From assembly GCF_003610255.1 (NCBI RefSeq), contig NZ_RAPS01000001.1, positions 1,364,001 through 1,428,000 on the forward strand: 64,000 nucleotides of DNA. The letters run 5' to 3'. The position numbers and the translations under genes were made by a program. Of this stretch, positions 25,559 through 30,532 are shown piece after piece. The first letter of the stretch is position 1, and each line of letters opens with the position of its first letter. The notes beneath the pieces were generated by a model, which saw only the letters and a program-made list of their open reading frames with translations, had not been told where the DNA came from and did no database searches. Source of the stretch: Streptomyces sp. TLI_171 (GTDB taxonomy: Bacteria > Actinomycetota > Actinomycetes > Streptomycetales > Streptomycetaceae).

Positions 25559-26062
25559 ATGTCCAGCGACTACGCGAAGCAGCTCGGGGCCAAGCTCCGG
25601 GCGATCCGCACTCAGCAGGGGCTCTCCCTGCACGGCGTCGAGGAGAAGTCCCAGGGTCGCTGGAAGGCTGTCGTCGTCGGCTCCTACGAGCGCGGCGACC
25701 GCGCGGTCACCGTTCAGCGCCTCGCCGAGCTGGCCGAGTTCTACGGCGTCCCGGTGCAGGAGCTGCTGCCCGGCGGCACCCCGGGCGGCGCCGCCGAGCC
25801 GCCGCCGCGCCTGGTCCTCGACCTGGAGCGGCTGACCCAGGTGCCGTCCGAGAAGGCCGGCCCGCTGCAGCGCTACGCGGCGACCATCCAGTCCCAGCGC
25901 GGCGACTACAACGGCAAGGTGCTCTCGATCCGTCAGGACGACCTGCGCACCCTGGCCGTGATCTACGACCAGTCCCCCTCGATCCTCACCGAGCAGCTGA
26001 TCAGCTGGGGCGTGCTGAACCCGGACGCGCGCCGCGCCGTCCGCGAGGAGGACGCCGGCTGA
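25559..26062 (+). CDS. bldD: Developmental master repressor BldD
   Basis: 167 aa. Cyclic-di-GMP-dependent repressor of sporulation genes in streptomycetes. The N-terminal XRE-type helix-turn-helix (AKLRAIRTQQGLSLHGVEEK ... VVVGSYERGDRAVT) binds DNA. The C-terminal domain carries the RxD-x8-RxxD signature RGD...RQDD with R114, D116, R125 and D128. These are the residues that clamp a cyclic-di-GMP tetramer between two subunits. It is divergent from pyrR and followed by a strong terminator. The ATG is preceded by GGGGAG. Confidence 0.97.
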   Translation: MSSDYAKQLGAKLRAIRTQQGLSLHGVEEKSQGRWKAVVVGSYERGDRAVTVQRLAELAEFYGVPVQELLPGGTPGGAAEPPPRLVLDLERLTQVPSEKAGPLQRYAATIQSQRGDYNGKVLSIRQDDLRTLAVIYDQSPSILTEQLISWGVLNPDARRAVREEDAG

Positions 26063-26141: not shown

Positions 26142-26996
26142 TCACACCACGGTGCCGAGGCTGAACCCGGGCCGGGCCGCCACCCCGTCGACCGCGAGTT
26201 CGGCCGGCGTCCAGTCGTGGCCGGTGCTCCGCCAGGCCCAGGCCACCTGCCGGTACTCCCCGCACAGCGCGCCGGAGCCCTGCGTCCCGTGCAGCACCGC
26301 CGCGCCGGGGAGCTCGCGGTACAGGCCCGCGCAGAGCACCGCCGTCACCAGGTCCAGGTCCTCGTCGTGGATCCGCACCGCGCCGTCCTCCCAGTGCAGC
26401 ACCCGCGCCTGGGCCTCCAGCGGCCCGGACGGGGCGTCCACCGCGAGCCGGAACTCGTACGCCCCGCAGCCCGCGCCGACCAGCACCCGCCGGAACACCT
26501 CTGAGGCCTGCTGGTACGTCCACCGCACCCGCGGGTCGGCAGCCGCCTGCTCGGGCGCGCAGAGCGCGCCGTCCATCAGCAGGTCGGCGTAGCGCAGCGC
26601 CAGGCCGCTCTCGCGGGCCCGGACCAGGCGCGGCAGGAAGTCCACCAGGTCCTCGCCGCGGTAGACCACCAGCTGGGTCTGCAGCGGCGGGTTGACCAGG
26701 TACCCGTCCCGGGCCGCCTGCTCGCGCGGGTCGAGGCCGTGCAGCAGGCAGTAGTCCGCGAAGTCGTCGGGGTGGAACATCCGGGCCCGGACGGTGCCGT
26801 AGTCCTCCACCGCCTCGGCGAGCAGTTCCCCCGCCTCGCGCAGGTAGGTGGCGAAGTCGGGGGCGTCCGTGACGTGCCACTCCCGCACCCGGTCGAAGTC
26901 CGCCTCGCCGGTCAGGATGCCCGTCACGAACGCCTCCTCGCTGCGGCGCGCGGACTCTGCACTGCAACGGCGCGGCCGGCGGCTGTTCCTGGACAT
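26142..26996 (-). CDS. Protein of unknown function
   Basis: 284 aa; I do not recognise the family. It starts with a basic stretch (MSRNSRRPRRCSAESARR), then an acidic, aromatic soluble protein. Visible stretches are 'FATYLREAGELLAEAVEDYG', 'MFHPDDFADYCLLHGLDPRE', 'YLVNPPLQTQLVVYRGED' and a C-terminal 'RVLHWEDGAVRIHDEDLDLV'. No signal peptide, membrane helix or known catalytic motif is apparent. ATG 26996 is chosen because GGGAG lies 6 nt before; the frame is open to 27080. GC content and codon use look like the neighbours. With the following thioesterase it interrupts the bldD-nusB neighbourhood that is compact in S. coelicolor. Confidence 0.7.
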   Translation of the reverse strand: MSRNSRRPRRCSAESARRSEEAFVTGILTGEADFDRVREWHVTDAPDFATYLREAGELLAEAVEDYGTVRARMFHPDDFADYCLLHGLDPREQAARDGYLVNPPLQTQLVVYRGEDLVDFLPRLVRARESGLALRYADLLMDGALCAPEQAAADPRVRWTYQQASEVFRRVLVGAGCGAYEFRLAVDAPSGPLEAQARVLHWEDGAVRIHDEDLDLVTAVLCAGLYRELPGAAVLHGTQGSGALCGEYRQVAWAWRSTGHDWTPAELAVDGVAARPGFSLGTVV

Positions 26997-27110
26997 CGGT
27001 GGCTCCCGGGGATCTCGGTCGAGCAACTGCTGACCCATGTCCTCCCCGTCCACACCCGTCCCACACACACGGCCTGTCACAACTCTGCAACTGACCGTGA
27101 GGCGGCCCGG

Positions 27111-27944
27111 CTACTGGCCGCGCGGCACCTTGGCGAGCTGGCGGGACTGGGCGACCAGGCGACCGTCCTGGTCCCAGATCTCGCAGTCCTCCTCGAAGTA
27201 GCCGCCGGCCACGTTGCGGGTGGCGTGCGAGACCCGCAGCCAGCCGTCGGCGGGCAACGCCCGGAGGTGGACGGTGAGTTCGATGGTGGGCGCCCAGCCG
27301 GGGCGGCCCAGGTCGAAGGTGACCGGCGGCAGCGCGTCGGCGGTCAGCAGCAGCGACAGCGGGTCGGCGGGGCGGCCGTCGGCCAGCCGGAACCAGCCCT
27401 GGATGCGCCCCTCCTTGGACGGCTGGCCGAGCGCCCAGCCGACGGTGGCCGGGTCGAGCCGCAGGTCCAGGCGCTCCAGCAGGGCGGCCTGGGCGATGAA
27501 CTCCTTCGGCGCGTGCTCGACGCCTATGCACTGCTCGGGCGCGGGCAGCACGGGCGGCAGCGCCGTGGTGGCCACCTCCTCGTCGAGCGCGCCGAGGTCG
27601 GTGAAGGCGGCGGTCAGCCGCAGCCGCTCCTCGCCGTCCTGGGAGAGGATCGCGCTGCCGGTGGCGAGGGTGCGGCCGCGCCGCACGATCTCGGTGCGGA
27701 CGGTGGCCGGGCCCGGGCGGGAGGCGGAGACGTAGGTGCCGCTGACGGTGAGCGGGTGAGGGTGGCCGGGTCCGGCCTCCAGGGCGAGGGCGTGGGCGGC
27801 GAAGGCGAGCAGCAGGCCGCCGTTGACGCCGCCGCCGATCTGCCAGCCGTCGCCGAGCTCGCCGTCGTAGCGGCCGGGTTCGGAGGGGTGCGGGGTGAGC
27901 GCGATGCCCTGGTCGAACTCGAACTCGCTGGTGGTCTCCGGCAT
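27111..27944 (-). CDS. Thioesterase-family (double hotdog) protein
   Basis: 277 aa. Resembles acyl-CoA thioesterase/TesB-like proteins with two hotdog domains. The first half has 'WQIGGGVNGGLLLAFAAHAL', '[16 protein letters not shown]' and 'GSAILSQDGEERLRLTAAF'. The second half has 'PTIELTVHLRALPADGWLRV' and 'CEIWDQDGRLVAQSRQLA', the typical strand that ends such folds. The ATG at 27944 (MPETTSEF) is chosen; a TTG at 27974 would add ten residues. Substrate is unknown. It probably forms a short unit with the unknown gene downstream. Confidence 0.8.
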   Translation of the reverse strand: MPETTSEFEFDQGIALTPHPSEPGRYDGELGDGWQIGGGVNGGLLLAFAAHALALEAGPGHPHPLTVSGTYVSASRPGPATVRTEIVRRGRTLATGSAILSQDGEERLRLTAAFTDLGALDEEVATTALPPVLPAPEQCIGVEHAPKEFIAQAALLERLDLRLDPATVGWALGQPSKEGRIQGWFRLADGRPADPLSLLLTADALPPVTFDLGRPGWAPTIELTVHLRALPADGWLRVSHATRNVAGGYFEEDCEIWDQDGRLVAQSRQLAKVPRGQ

Positions 27945-28000
27945 GGCTTCGCGGCCCTTCTGCGCATCGGGCAAAACATTACTTGCCAGTAGCTTACGCG

Positions 28001-28051: not shown

Positions 28052-28489
28052 TCAGCGCCGAATGCTCGGCTTGAGCTCCATGAAGCGGGCGAGCAGGCCG
28101 TTCACGAAGGCGGGCGACTCGTCCGTGGAGAACTCCTTGGCGATCTCCACCGACTCGTCCAGCACCACCGCGTCGGGCGTGCCGTCCTCCCAGATCAGCT
28201 CGTACGCGCCGAGCCGGAGTACGTTGCGGTCGGCGATCGGCATCCGGTCGAGCGTCCAGCCCACCGCGTAGGTGGAGATCAGGTCGTCGATGGTGCGCGC
28301 GTGCTGGGCGTAACCCTCGACCAGCTGCATCGTGTACTCCGCGACCTGCGGAATGCCCTCGTCCGGCCGGGGGTCGCGCGCCCGCGCGATCCAGTCGGCG
28401 AGCACCCTCTCGGGGGACACACCGCGGTGGTCCGCCTCGAACAGGATCTGGAAGGCCCGGGTGCGGGCCTTGCTACGAGCAGCGGCCAC
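28052..28489 (-). CDS. nusB: Transcription antitermination factor NusB
   Basis: 145 aa, all-helical RNA-binding factor that with NusE (S10) acts on boxA of rRNA operons. Conserved stretches are 'RSKARTRAFQILFEADHRG', 'DRMPIADRNVLRLGAYELIW' and 'VVLDESVEIAKEFSTDESPA', ending 'FVNGLLARFME'. The GTG at 28489 lies 2 nt after the efp stop, so translation depends on efp. The order efp-nusB is common in Gram-positive bacteria. Confidence 0.95.
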   Translation of the reverse strand: MAAARSKARTRAFQILFEADHRGVSPERVLADWIARARDPRPDEGIPQVAEYTMQLVEGYAQHARTIDDLISTYAVGWTLDRMPIADRNVLRLGAYELIWEDGTPDAVVLDESVEIAKEFSTDESPAFVNGLLARFMELKPSIRR

Positions 28490-28491
28490 GA

Positions 28492-29055
28492 TTACTTGAC
28501 CCGGCCGAGGTAGCTGCCGTCGCGGGTGTCGACCTTGACCTTCTCGCCGGTGGTGACGAAGAGCGGGACCTGGATCTCGGCACCGGTCTCCAGGGTGGCG
28601 GGCTTGGTGCCACCGGTGGAGCGGTCGCCCTGCACGCCCGGCTCGGTCTCGGCGATGACCAGCTCGACCGCGGCCGGGAGCTCGACGTACAGCGGGACGC
28701 CGTCGTTCTGCGCGACCAGGGCCTCGAAGCCCTCCAGCAGGTACTTGGCGGCGTCGCCGACGGTGGCGGAGTCGACCGGGACCTGGTCGTAGGTGTCCAT
28801 GTCCATGAAGATGAACGCGTCGCCGTCGCGGTAGGAGTACTGCATCGTCCGCTTGTCGACGTTGGCGGTCTCGACCTTGACGCCCGCGTTGAAGGTCTTG
28901 TCGACGACCTTGCCGCTGAGGACCTCCTTCAGCTTGGTGCGCACGAAGGCCGGGCCCTTGCCGGGCTTGACGTGCTGGAACTCGACGACGGTCCAGAGCT
29001 TGCCGCCGTCGAGCTTGAGGACCATGCCGTTCTTGAGATCGTTCGTGGTAGCCAC
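28492..29055 (-). CDS. efp: Translation elongation factor P
   Basis: 187 aa. Relieves ribosome stalling at polyproline. Three beta-barrel domains: the N-terminal KOW-like domain carries the tip loop '[15 protein letters not shown]' with an unmodified-type Lys; the C-terminal OB domain ends '[20 protein letters not shown]'. The frame is open to 29088, but GTG 29055 gives [10 protein letters not shown], the streptomycete N-terminus, with GGAG about 11 nt upstream. It is cotranscribed with nusB. Confidence 0.96.
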
Positions 29056-29130
29056 GGGCGCACTTACTCCTGATATGTCCGCTGTCAAAGAGCACCAAGC
29101 AGGCGCGCCGCCGACGCCCGCCGGAGCGGA

Positions 29131-30237
29131 CTACAACGCGAGGAGCTCCTTGGTGGTGATGGTGAGCAGCTCGGGCCCGCCCTCCTCGGGAGGCCGCACC
29201 ACGAGCGTGTCCTCGATCCGGACCCCGCCCCGGCCCGGGAGATGGACCCCTGGACCGACGGTGACCGGCACGCGATTGTCCAGTTTACCCATGTCGGCGG
29301 GCCCGAGGCGCGGAGCCTCCCGGATCTCCAGGCCGATGCCGTGTCCCAGGGCGTGGACGGACTGCTCGGCGTGGCCCGCGGCCTGGAGGATCGAGCGCGC
29401 CGCGTCGTCCGGGACGTGCTGCTCGACGCCCGGCCCGAGCGCCTCCCGGCCGGCCCGCTGGGCGTGGAAGACCAGGCGGTGCAGCTCGACCTGCCAGGCC
29501 GCCGGGGCGGCGCCGATGACGAAGGTGCGGGCGGTGGAGATGCCGTAGCCGCGGTACTGCGCGCCGAGCGCGACGGTCAGGAAGTCGCCCTCCTCCACCC
29601 GGCGGTCGGTGGGCTGGTGGCGCTCCAGGCCGGAGTGGCTGCCGGTGCCGACGGAGACCGGGAAGGCCGCCCGGTCCGCGCCGTGGTCGATCATCCGACG
29701 CTCCAGCTCCATCGCCAGGTGCCGCTCCGTCCGGCCGACCAGGATCGATTCGAGCAGCTCGCCGAGCGCCTGGTCGGCGATCTCGGCGGCGATCCGCAGG
29801 TCGGCGATCTCGTGCTCGTCCTTGACCACCCGCAGCCGCTCCACCGCCCGGTCCAGGTCGAGCAGCCGGCGGGCGCCGGCCAGTCGGGCGACCGCGCGGT
29901 GCCGGCTGACGGTGAGGTCGTGCTCCTCCACCGCCAGGTCGCCGACCCGCAGCCGGGCTGCGGCCTCGGCCACGGCCTGCGCGGCGTCCGCGTCGGCGGG
30001 CACCGGCAGCTGGGTGATCTCCGCCTCCAGCGCCCGCTCCCCCGCGTCCTCGGGGGCGGCGTCCTCGGGCCGGGCGAGCACCGCGCGCTCGCGGGTGAGC
30101 AGCAGTGCGGCCCCGCACGGCGGGCAGCCGGTCAGGTAGCGGACGTTGGCGGCGCGGGTGATCAGCGCGGCGTCGGCCCCGGAGGCGCTGCAGTACTCGC
30201 GAAGGCGTTCGCGTCGGGCGGCGTGCGCGTCGGACAT
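29131..30237 (-). CDS. M24-family (Xaa-Pro peptidase-like) protein lacking metal ligands
   Basis: 368 aa, with a creatinase-like N-terminal domain and a C-terminal 'pita-bread' domain of aminopeptidase P/prolidase type. The five metal ligands of M24 enzymes (D, D, H, E, E) are mostly lost. The first Asp is Ala223 (VALGA), the second Asp is Ser234 (YGISTARTF) and the first Glu is Gly328 (TVGPG). His299 (GHGIG) and Glu342 (RIEDT) remain. It is unlikely to be a metallopeptidase. The fold, start (ATG 30237) and frame are intact, so it is not a decaying pseudogene. It sits directly upstream of efp, where an aminopeptidase is usually annotated. Confidence 0.85.
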   Translation of the reverse strand: MSDAHAARRERLREYCSASGADAALITRAANVRYLTGCPPCGAALLLTRERAVLARPEDAAPEDAGERALEAEITQLPVPADADAAQAVAEAAARLRVGDLAVEEHDLTVSRHRAVARLAGARRLLDLDRAVERLRVVKDEHEIADLRIAAEIADQALGELLESILVGRTERHLAMELERRMIDHGADRAAFPVSVGTGSHSGLERHQPTDRRVEEGDFLTVALGAQYRGYGISTARTFVIGAAPAAWQVELHRLVFHAQRAGREALGPGVEQHVPDDAARSILQAAGHAEQSVHALGHGIGLEIREAPRLGPADMGKLDNRVPVTVGPGVHLPGRGGVRIEDTLVVRPPEEGGPELLTITTKELLAL

Positions 30238-30331
30238 GGTCCGAGCGTACGAACGGGGGCGGGGGCCCGCCCGTCGGGACGGGCCGTTGGGGAATGCCCC
30301 GGGGGCGGGCCGCGTTGTGGCCTGATGAAAA

Positions 30332-30346
30332 CGGCAATCGTTGCCG
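30332..30346. promoter_or_regulatory. Candidate Zur-type operator before rpmG
   Basis: The palindrome CGGCAA-TCG-TTGCCG is preceded by TGAAAA and lies 21 bp before the rpmG start. Zinc-free rpmG/rpmE2 paralogues are Zur-repressed in Streptomyces, and TGAAAA-like half sites occur in Zur boxes. The match to the Zur consensus is only partial. Confidence 0.4.
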
Positions 30347-30367
30347 GGATCGGATCGGGAGGTCCAG

Positions 30368-30532
30368 ATGGCACGCAGCGAGCTGCGACCGGTGATCACG
30401 CTCAGGTCGACGGCGGGTACGGGCTTCACGTACGTGACGCGGAAGAACCGCCGCAACGACCCCGACCGGATCGCGCTGCGGAAGTTCGACCCGGTGGCGG
30501 GGCGGCACGTCGAGTTCCGCGAGTCCCGCTGA
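30368..30532 (+). CDS. rpmG: 50S ribosomal protein L33 (cysteine-free paralogue)
   Basis: 54 aa: bL33 with '[20 protein letters not shown]' and FDP near the C-terminus. It lacks the CxxC pairs of the zinc-binding form, so it is the zinc-independent paralogue used in zinc starvation. ATG 30368 follows GGGAGGT at 30358-30364. It is paired with a type B L31 gene 50 nt downstream. Confidence 0.93.

Follow-up and report, generated by a model that had tools for sequence, protein, structure and literature searches.

The window is the whole stretch of DNA that was analysed, 64,000 nucleotides from Streptomyces sp. TLI_171. On its minus strand it carries a homologue of the M24B peptidases, upstream of efp and nusB (Table 1). 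The open reading frame (30237 to 29131) starts with ATG, ends with TAG and encodes 368 amino acids, with no frameshift or internal stop. Both domains of an M24B peptidase were found with Pfam: Peptidase_M24 scored 155.7 bits against a cut-off of 23, and Creatinase_N scored 59.5 against 22. In NCBIfam no model exceeded its cut-off for this protein, and the best reached 194 bits where 630 were required. The top matches among solved structures were Xaa-Pro dipeptidases (1wy2, E 1.6e-49). The AlphaFold model has a pLDDT of only 72.7 (low at 294-327, 344-350 and 355-368), so it is of moderate quality; it shows the pita-bread two-domain fold and matched 3q6d best (Z 29.7, rmsd 4.0, 341 residues, 29% identity). 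Thus the window protein shares fold and sequence family with the bacterial Xaa-Pro dipeptidases and aminopeptidases P of M24B (3q6d, 1wy2, 1pv9, 2zsg). A first-pass annotation of this DNA had described the fold as otherwise complete and the frame as undamaged, and both the reading frame and the domain scores bear this out.

The genome of 8.46 Mb has eight M24 members. Nearest to the window protein is the paralogue L002, at 34% identity. In Saccharopolyspora erythraea a pepQ-efp-nusB locus is reported (PMC3359211), with pepQ in the same place as the gene studied here. The same source describes bldD immediately after nusB in Saccharopolyspora. In the window, two open reading frames (26142-27974; by eye, one thioesterase-like and one hypothetical) lie between nusB and a BldD-like gene at 25559-26062. 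A terminator-like hairpin is found upstream of the M24 gene at 30346-30332.

Table 1. Features of the M24B homologue and its neighbours, in positions of the window.
Feature	Position	Strand	Basis
CDS, M24B homologue with degenerate metal site, 368 aa	29131..30237	-	ORF list, domain matches, alignment
Codons 57-60 (PEDA); intact orthologues conserve a TDxRY stretch, whose D-x-R-Y part is lost here	30058..30069	-	
Codons 149-185, helix pair, near-fixed in the degenerate clade	29683..29793	-	
Codon R206; His in 49/49 intact rows	29620..29622	-	
Codon A223; first Asp ligand in intact orthologues	29569..29571	-	
Codon S234; second Asp ligand in intact orthologues	29536..29538	-	
Codon H299, His ligand kept; also in 204/213 distinct degenerate copies	29341..29343	-	
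Codon R306; His in 49/49 intact rows	29320..29322	-	
Codon G328; first Glu ligand in intact orthologues	29254..29256	-	
Codon E342, Glu ligand kept; Asp in most of the Streptomyces lineage	29212..29214	-	
Codons 353-368, C-terminal tail; conserved as protein and at synonymous sites	29134..29181	-	
efp, first gene downstream; elongation factor P with tip loop PGKGPAF	28492..29055	-	
nusB, directly after efp, start approximate	28052..28492	-	

The metal site of M24B peptidases consists of five ligands, D, D, H, E and E. When the window protein was aligned with 1wy2, 1pv9, 3q6d and L002, these columns read A223, S234, H299, G328 and E342, as the first-pass annotation had found by eye. The active-site histidines of the P-H-H and E-I-H-E stretches are also gone and are replaced by R206 and R306. 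With its ligand set incomplete, the window protein is not a member of the active peptidase family. It has the M24 fold without a complete metal site, as do M24 pseudoenzymes. In the M24-fold lyase RnDddP, mutation of any metal-binding residue to Ala is reported to inactivate the enzyme (PMC4108388). The sequence is still best read as that of a non-enzymatic M24 member, as had been proposed.

We surveyed orthologues upstream of efp. The 262 distinct sequences consist of 149 family copies (drawn from 246 family genomes with a match), 71 named records (from the best 80 matches listed, duplicates removed) and 42 copies from outside the family. The last group has 39 copies from the class (of 40 fetched; 105 non-family class genomes had a match) and 3 from the order. 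The ligand count left out 19 paralogue or non-orthologue loci, a split copy of genome G012 (L104, L123, L132), a truncated copy of G131 (L148, L149, L164) and the incomplete or atypical L117, L119 and L086. L147 was dropped as a repeat of L124, and in all 271 rows were reduced to 262.

DDHEE was found in 49 of the 262 and other combinations in 213. The intact set is made up of 39 copies from other families of the class, 3 from the order (f2/g18 and f3/g19) and 7 from Streptomycetaceae. These seven belong to two early-branching genera, g2 (3 copies) and g5 (4 copies). Both Asp ligands were missing in 213/213 distinct core Streptomycetaceae copies, none of which kept either one, and both were present in 49/49 orthologues outside the core; the pattern is therefore not due to chance. 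A loss limited to this strain, or an assembly error, is ruled out, since all distinct core-family copies that were read share it. Equally ruled out is a family that is non-enzymatic throughout the actinomycetes, given DDHEE in all 49 orthologues outside the core. The first-pass annotation had named intact orthologues at the same locus, together with activity of this protein on Xaa-Pro peptides, as evidence against its reading. Intact orthologues do occur there, but they are absent from the core family, and they point to a single derived loss and not to a misread site.

The number of canonical letters kept in the 213 degenerate copies was two in 197, one in 15 and three in 1. His was kept in 204, the first Glu in 124 and the second Glu in 84 (127 have Asp there). 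The Streptomyces lineage mostly reads C-E-H-E-D: among its 132 rows we counted E234 in 125, H299 in 131, E328 in 126 and D342 in 130. The Kitasatospora lineage mostly has V, A or S followed by S-H-G-E (VSHGE, ASHGE and similar, also SRHGE and SCHGE), so usually only H299 and E342 are left, and copies of genus g3 have degenerated as far as AAAGE. The window protein, with ASHGE, comes from a genome that probably belongs to Kitasatospora. His206 has become Gly (87/132) or Arg (35/132) in the Streptomyces lineage. His306 has become Asp in 102/132 rows of the Streptomyces lineage and Arg in 71/89 rows of the Kitasatospora lineage. Two of the named records carry titles other than Streptomycetaceae: L262 (Streptosporangium nondiastaticum) and L285 (Actinobacteria bacterium OK074). 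Their copies read CEHDD and CEHED and match the window protein at 64% and 63%.

Some sequences outside the count were also read. L086 is DDHEE, as are L002 and the paralogue loci L305, L307, L308 and L310. The paralogues L306 and L311 align Pro at the fifth ligand place and L312 aligns Arg at the third; the methionine-aminopeptidase-like ones align poorly, and their letters are unreliable.

In a tree of 76 rows, a single change separates the DDHEE copies (22 rows) from the degenerate ones (54 rows) with an SH-aLRT of 99. This tree came from a quick search with no bootstrap, was rooted at the midpoint and has some long end branches. The change runs in the direction of ligand loss, because all outgroups fall on the intact side. 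The earliest-branching degenerate copy is L124/L147 (genome G083, genus g15), which reads EAHEQ in a frame of 444 aa with extra residues. It may be an intermediate state, though its branch is long.

The gene is widely kept. At E<=1e-60 a match was found in 69/70 genomes of the genus and 246/249 of the family, and at E<=1e-40 in 56/60 genomes of the order sample and 127/246 of the class sample. The three family genomes with no match (G041, G101 and G240) also gave none for efp (E<=1e-40) and nusB (E<=1e-8), so specific loss of the M24 gene is not concluded for them. In every row kept for the counts (222 degenerate and 49 intact) efp lies downstream on the same strand. The gap between the two matches is 51-217 nt in the degenerate rows and 9-772 nt in the intact rows. 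The fixed place before efp, to which the first-pass annotation had drawn attention, is therefore real. It had been taken as a sign of a role in translation, and this does not follow: intact DDHEE orthologues occupy the same place across actinomycetes. The gene already stood there when it coded for the enzyme, and its location therefore says little about a role in translation.

The degenerate copies are nearly always full length. One is truncated in G131, a genome that is 76% complete. In the nearly complete Kitasatospora genome G012 (L104) the orthologue is split over frames, one of which runs into efp; this copy is either a natural pseudogene or a sequencing error. Four genomes of family f3 (L143-L146, genera g20 and g21) have efp and no M24 match in the fetched stretch, at most 1.5 kb on each side. 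It was lost or moved in these genera, and a related family can thus lose the gene.

To describe selection on the gene, we used dN/dS and the divergence of NusB as a yardstick. Because silent sites are saturated and inflate NG86 estimates (intact M24 pairs gave 0.49 and 0.37, and EF-P 0.34-0.41 in closer pairs), the median dN/dS (Kitasatospora lineage 0.27, Streptomyces lineage 0.23; 397/400 sampled pairs in each) shows only that the ratio is well below 1. Relative to NusB, degenerate copies had a dN of 1.40 (Kitasatospora lineage) and 1.11 (Streptomyces lineage), where intact copies had 1.02 and 0.99. For the selection and synonymous analyses, L124, L122 or rows under 345 aa were also left out and pairs were sampled. 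The degenerate gene evolves at about the pace of a core gene, a little faster in Kitasatospora, and does not look like a gene in decay. It is thus conserved despite the lost site, in the 246/249 family genomes of which two genera still keep the site, and with dN/dS of 0.23-0.27.

Site rates were computed separately for intact, Kitasatospora-lineage and Streptomyces-lineage copies. Catalytic and pocket positions that are fixed in intact copies, namely S41-N42, T56-D-x-R-Y60, P205-H206, D223, H232, D234, T236, H306 and Y332, have been replaced or vary freely in each of the degenerate lineages. Positions 57, 59, 60 and 205 are fast in both, with relative rates of 1.6-4.0. For seven positions chosen in advance, the five ligands and two histidines, pair differences relative to the rest of the protein were 0 in intact copies; the ratio was 1.28 among Kitasatospora-lineage copies, 0.87 among Streptomyces-lineage copies and 2.05 between the lineages. 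A wider set of 19 catalytic and pocket columns gave 0.03-0.04 in intact and 1.28-1.71 in degenerate copies, ratios that are biased because the columns were chosen partly from those seen to be lost.

The Streptomyces-lineage pocket is remodelled and not simply free. Its five ligand columns alone differ at 0.44 of the rest, and relative rates are 0.29 at 234, 0.12 at 299, 0.25 at 328 and 0.25 at 342. New residues are fixed in it: R232 (0.15), G236 (0.39) and H332 (0.12), besides E234. These slow, conserved positions would suit an altered enzyme, in which E234-H299-E328-D342 forms a one-metal site with swapped Asp and Glu lengths and a changed activity or ligand, with full loss of activity in the Kitasatospora lineage alone. 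An M24-fold enzyme that needs no M24 metal site is creatinase, and its structure 1chm is among the fold matches (Z 27.5, rmsd 4.6, 347 residues, about 20% identity). When the window protein was judged as a creatinase-type enzyme, the seven columns varied about as the rest (1.28 and 0.87) with some Streptomyces pocket positions fixed anew. However, neither lineage retains the TDxRY stretch, and change is rapid at positions 57, 59, 60 and 205. His206 and His306 are replaced in both lineages, and Kitasatospora copies mostly keep only H299 and E342. We consider an altered enzyme rather unlikely. The same figures bear on the suggestion that the protein might bind proline-containing peptides in its old pocket. 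This is less likely than had been proposed: in Kitasatospora the seven positions vary at 1.28 times the rest against 0 in intact copies, and the Streptomyces values (0.87, 0.44 for the ligands, and the newly fixed residues) would still allow a remodelled pocket.

While the pocket loosened, another part of the protein tightened. Residues 149-185, which fall in helices 141-163 and 171-184 of the model, have a relative rate of 1.06 in intact copies, 0.17 in the Kitasatospora lineage and 0.12 in the Streptomyces lineage. This block was picked after the rates had been seen, and its shift test (1/367 shifts as low) is not a probability. As a cross-lineage check, the lineages were taken separately: in both, 156-185 was the 30-residue block that tightened most, and a block of 20 or 37 residues picked in one lineage came second or third in the other. 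At a divergence of 0.25-0.35 in the rest of the protein, the helix block differed by 0.328 in other intact copies (27 pairs), 0.197 in intact Streptomycetales (24 pairs) and 0.051 in degenerate copies (698 pairs). As the intact Streptomycetales lie between, the tightening had started ahead of the ligand loss; the Streptomycetales value comes from ten sequences. Judged from the known fold and a moderate model, the two helices would sit on the outer side of the pita-bread domain.

The site rates of M24 correlate at 0.80 between the two degenerate lineages, and only at 0.38 and 0.37 with those of intact copies. The corresponding values are 0.78, falling to 0.77 and 0.72, for EF-P and 0.69, falling to 0.52 and 0.55, for NusB. 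No matching rate shift, such as a co-shifting partner would show, was seen in EF-P. The NusB control is only partly clean, as it shows a weaker loss of correlation. At four-fold sites the helix block is not reduced in Streptomyces (0.403 against 0.385 overall) and is lower in Kitasatospora (0.227 against 0.334). Synonymous differences over all codons are low at codons 141-160 (0.105-0.169 and 0.179-0.258 in the two lineages), so the beginning of the block may be subject to some DNA-level constraint or codon bias.

Most of residues 53-100 in the N-terminal domain, and the TDxRY stretch, are among the most relaxed parts of the protein. This is not expected if the window protein were a dead regulatory subunit, joined to an intact M24B peptidase (for instance L002) and modulating that enzyme, since these N-terminal residues would then complete the partner's site. 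Dimers are usual in M24B, and L002 is an intact paralogue in the same genome. The M24-fold lyase RdDddP is described as a homodimer (PMC4108388), and inactive subunits are reported in other metallopeptidase families (PMC11266112). Even so, a subunit of this kind seems very improbable.

The 3' end of the gene behaves differently. Synonymous differences at codons 353-368 were 0.104 against 0.269 overall in Kitasatospora and 0.148 against 0.321 in Streptomyces, with no depression in intact copies (0.499 against 0.440). In all 132 rows of the Streptomyces lineage Leu357 is CTA and Thr361 is ACG. The CTA codon is rare in Streptomyces. In this lineage the lowered synonymous change reaches back to about codon 321 (codons 321-368, 29134-29277, minus strand). 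The synonymous test rules out that the C-terminal tail is constrained purely as protein. As it is constrained at least partly as DNA, we did not use the tail as evidence for protein function. In S. venezuelae a ChIP peak of WhiA is reported 191 nt ahead of the start of efp (PMC3781837); given the M24-efp gaps in the Streptomyces rows, it would fall inside the M24 gene. The efp gene of S. coelicolor is listed in the HrdB regulon (PMC6344877). The 3' end of the M24 gene is probably promoter or WhiA regulatory DNA of efp. A promoter scan of 28950-30500 found no sigma-70-like site. At about 29060-29100, just before efp, 11 Kitasatospora-lineage junction rows have in common a block with TTGACAGC and CAGGAG; the 14 Streptomyces-lineage junction rows are without that TTGACAGC block, except for CAGGAG.

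These results raise the question whether the whole frame persists mainly because its 3' end holds the efp promoter or regulatory sites, so that the protein matters little. The synonymous depression in both degenerate lineages and its absence from intact copies, the two invariant codons, and the reported WhiA and HrdB links at efp would all agree with such a relic. However, it accounts only for about the last 50 codons. Over the gene as a whole dN/dS stays well under 1, and the residues that tightened most (156-185) are far from efp. We think a relic kept for its DNA quite improbable.

M24 pseudoenzymes are already known. Ebp1/PA2G4 is described as a pseudo-methionine-aminopeptidase with two of five ligands left, which is non-catalytic and caps the ribosome exit tunnel (PMC11266112). 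The window protein likewise has the M24 fold and two of five metal ligands, and by the same measure would be non-catalytic. Ebp1 differs in being a eukaryotic protein of the methionine aminopeptidase branch whose pseudo-active site faces the tunnel, whereas the corresponding site of the degenerate M24B copies is under loose constraint, above all in Kitasatospora. Ebp1 shows that a pseudoenzyme with the M24 fold can work at the ribosome, though it presents its pocket side. The N-terminal domain of Spt16 (FACT), a non-peptidase, has a pseudo-aminopeptidase-P fold like that of the window protein (5ce6, Z 23.4, rmsd 4.9, 346 residues). Spt16 is a eukaryotic chromatin protein with further domains, unlike the window protein, and the likeness seen is one of fold. 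The ectoine hydrolase DoeA (6twk) also has this fold (Z 27.2, rmsd 4.5, 352 residues, about 20% identity).

In B. subtilis, yqhT presumably lies before efp. YqhT is listed as an Xaa-Pro peptidase, and its mutant is reported to be slow to enter sporulation (PMC4703394); it is suggested to clear proline peptides from premature termination (PMC4993169). In these sources YqhT is treated as an active enzyme, unlike the degenerate window protein. A search of full-text literature, judged by titles and the starts of abstracts and covering few subscription journals, found nothing on metal-ligand loss in this M24B family. The S. coelicolor gene is presumably SCO1492, and no paper with that tag was found in the search. 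A bacterial M24B pseudoenzyme that is conserved and whose constraint has shifted would thus be new beside Ebp1 and the Spt16 fold.

Compared with active M24B enzymes, the window protein is without the D, D and E ligands, His206, His306 and the TDxRY stretch, and its tightest part is the helix pair 149-185 instead. On balance we favour, with modest confidence, the view that it descends from an efp-linked Xaa-Pro peptidase, is now non-catalytic and is kept for a binding role through this helix pair. The ancestor would have been an Xaa-Pro peptidase gene beside efp, as in the intact orthologues of the other actinomycetes that were read. Beside EF-P, such an enzyme could plausibly have cleared proline peptides. 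In the ancestor of the core Streptomycetaceae both Asp ligands would have been lost once, together with several pocket motifs, and the Kitasatospora lineage would afterwards have lost a glutamate ligand as well. The window protein would then no longer be an Xaa-Pro peptidase and would be retained for a non-catalytic role, its partner probably being another macromolecule bound by residues 149-185. The computations themselves show that the ligands were lost, that this happened once, that the gene persists under purifying selection and that its constraint has shifted; inactivity, binding as the mode of action and the outer position of the helices are inferred.

The second role probably came first, because intact relatives in this order already show the helix block becoming tighter. 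Enzyme activity would have become dispensable later, perhaps thanks to the other intact M24B peptidase (L002). The full order of events is more tentative, and we give it a little less than an even chance: a constrained surface gained in an intact prolidase, catalysis lost once, the surface then near-fixed and the 3' end turned into regulatory DNA of efp.

Almost all Streptomyces and Kitasatospora genomes share a core gene that family search presents as a peptidase, although its active site is missing. If the order of events given above is right, nearly all Streptomyces would carry a conserved, unrecognised binding protein that resembles a peptidase. The locus offers a clean before-and-after series from enzyme to pseudoenzyme, with the same position, one branch, intact relatives within the family and a measurable move of constraint. 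The order of new function and loss of catalysis becomes directly testable, and the stretch 149-185 would serve as bait for the partner in a laboratory species.
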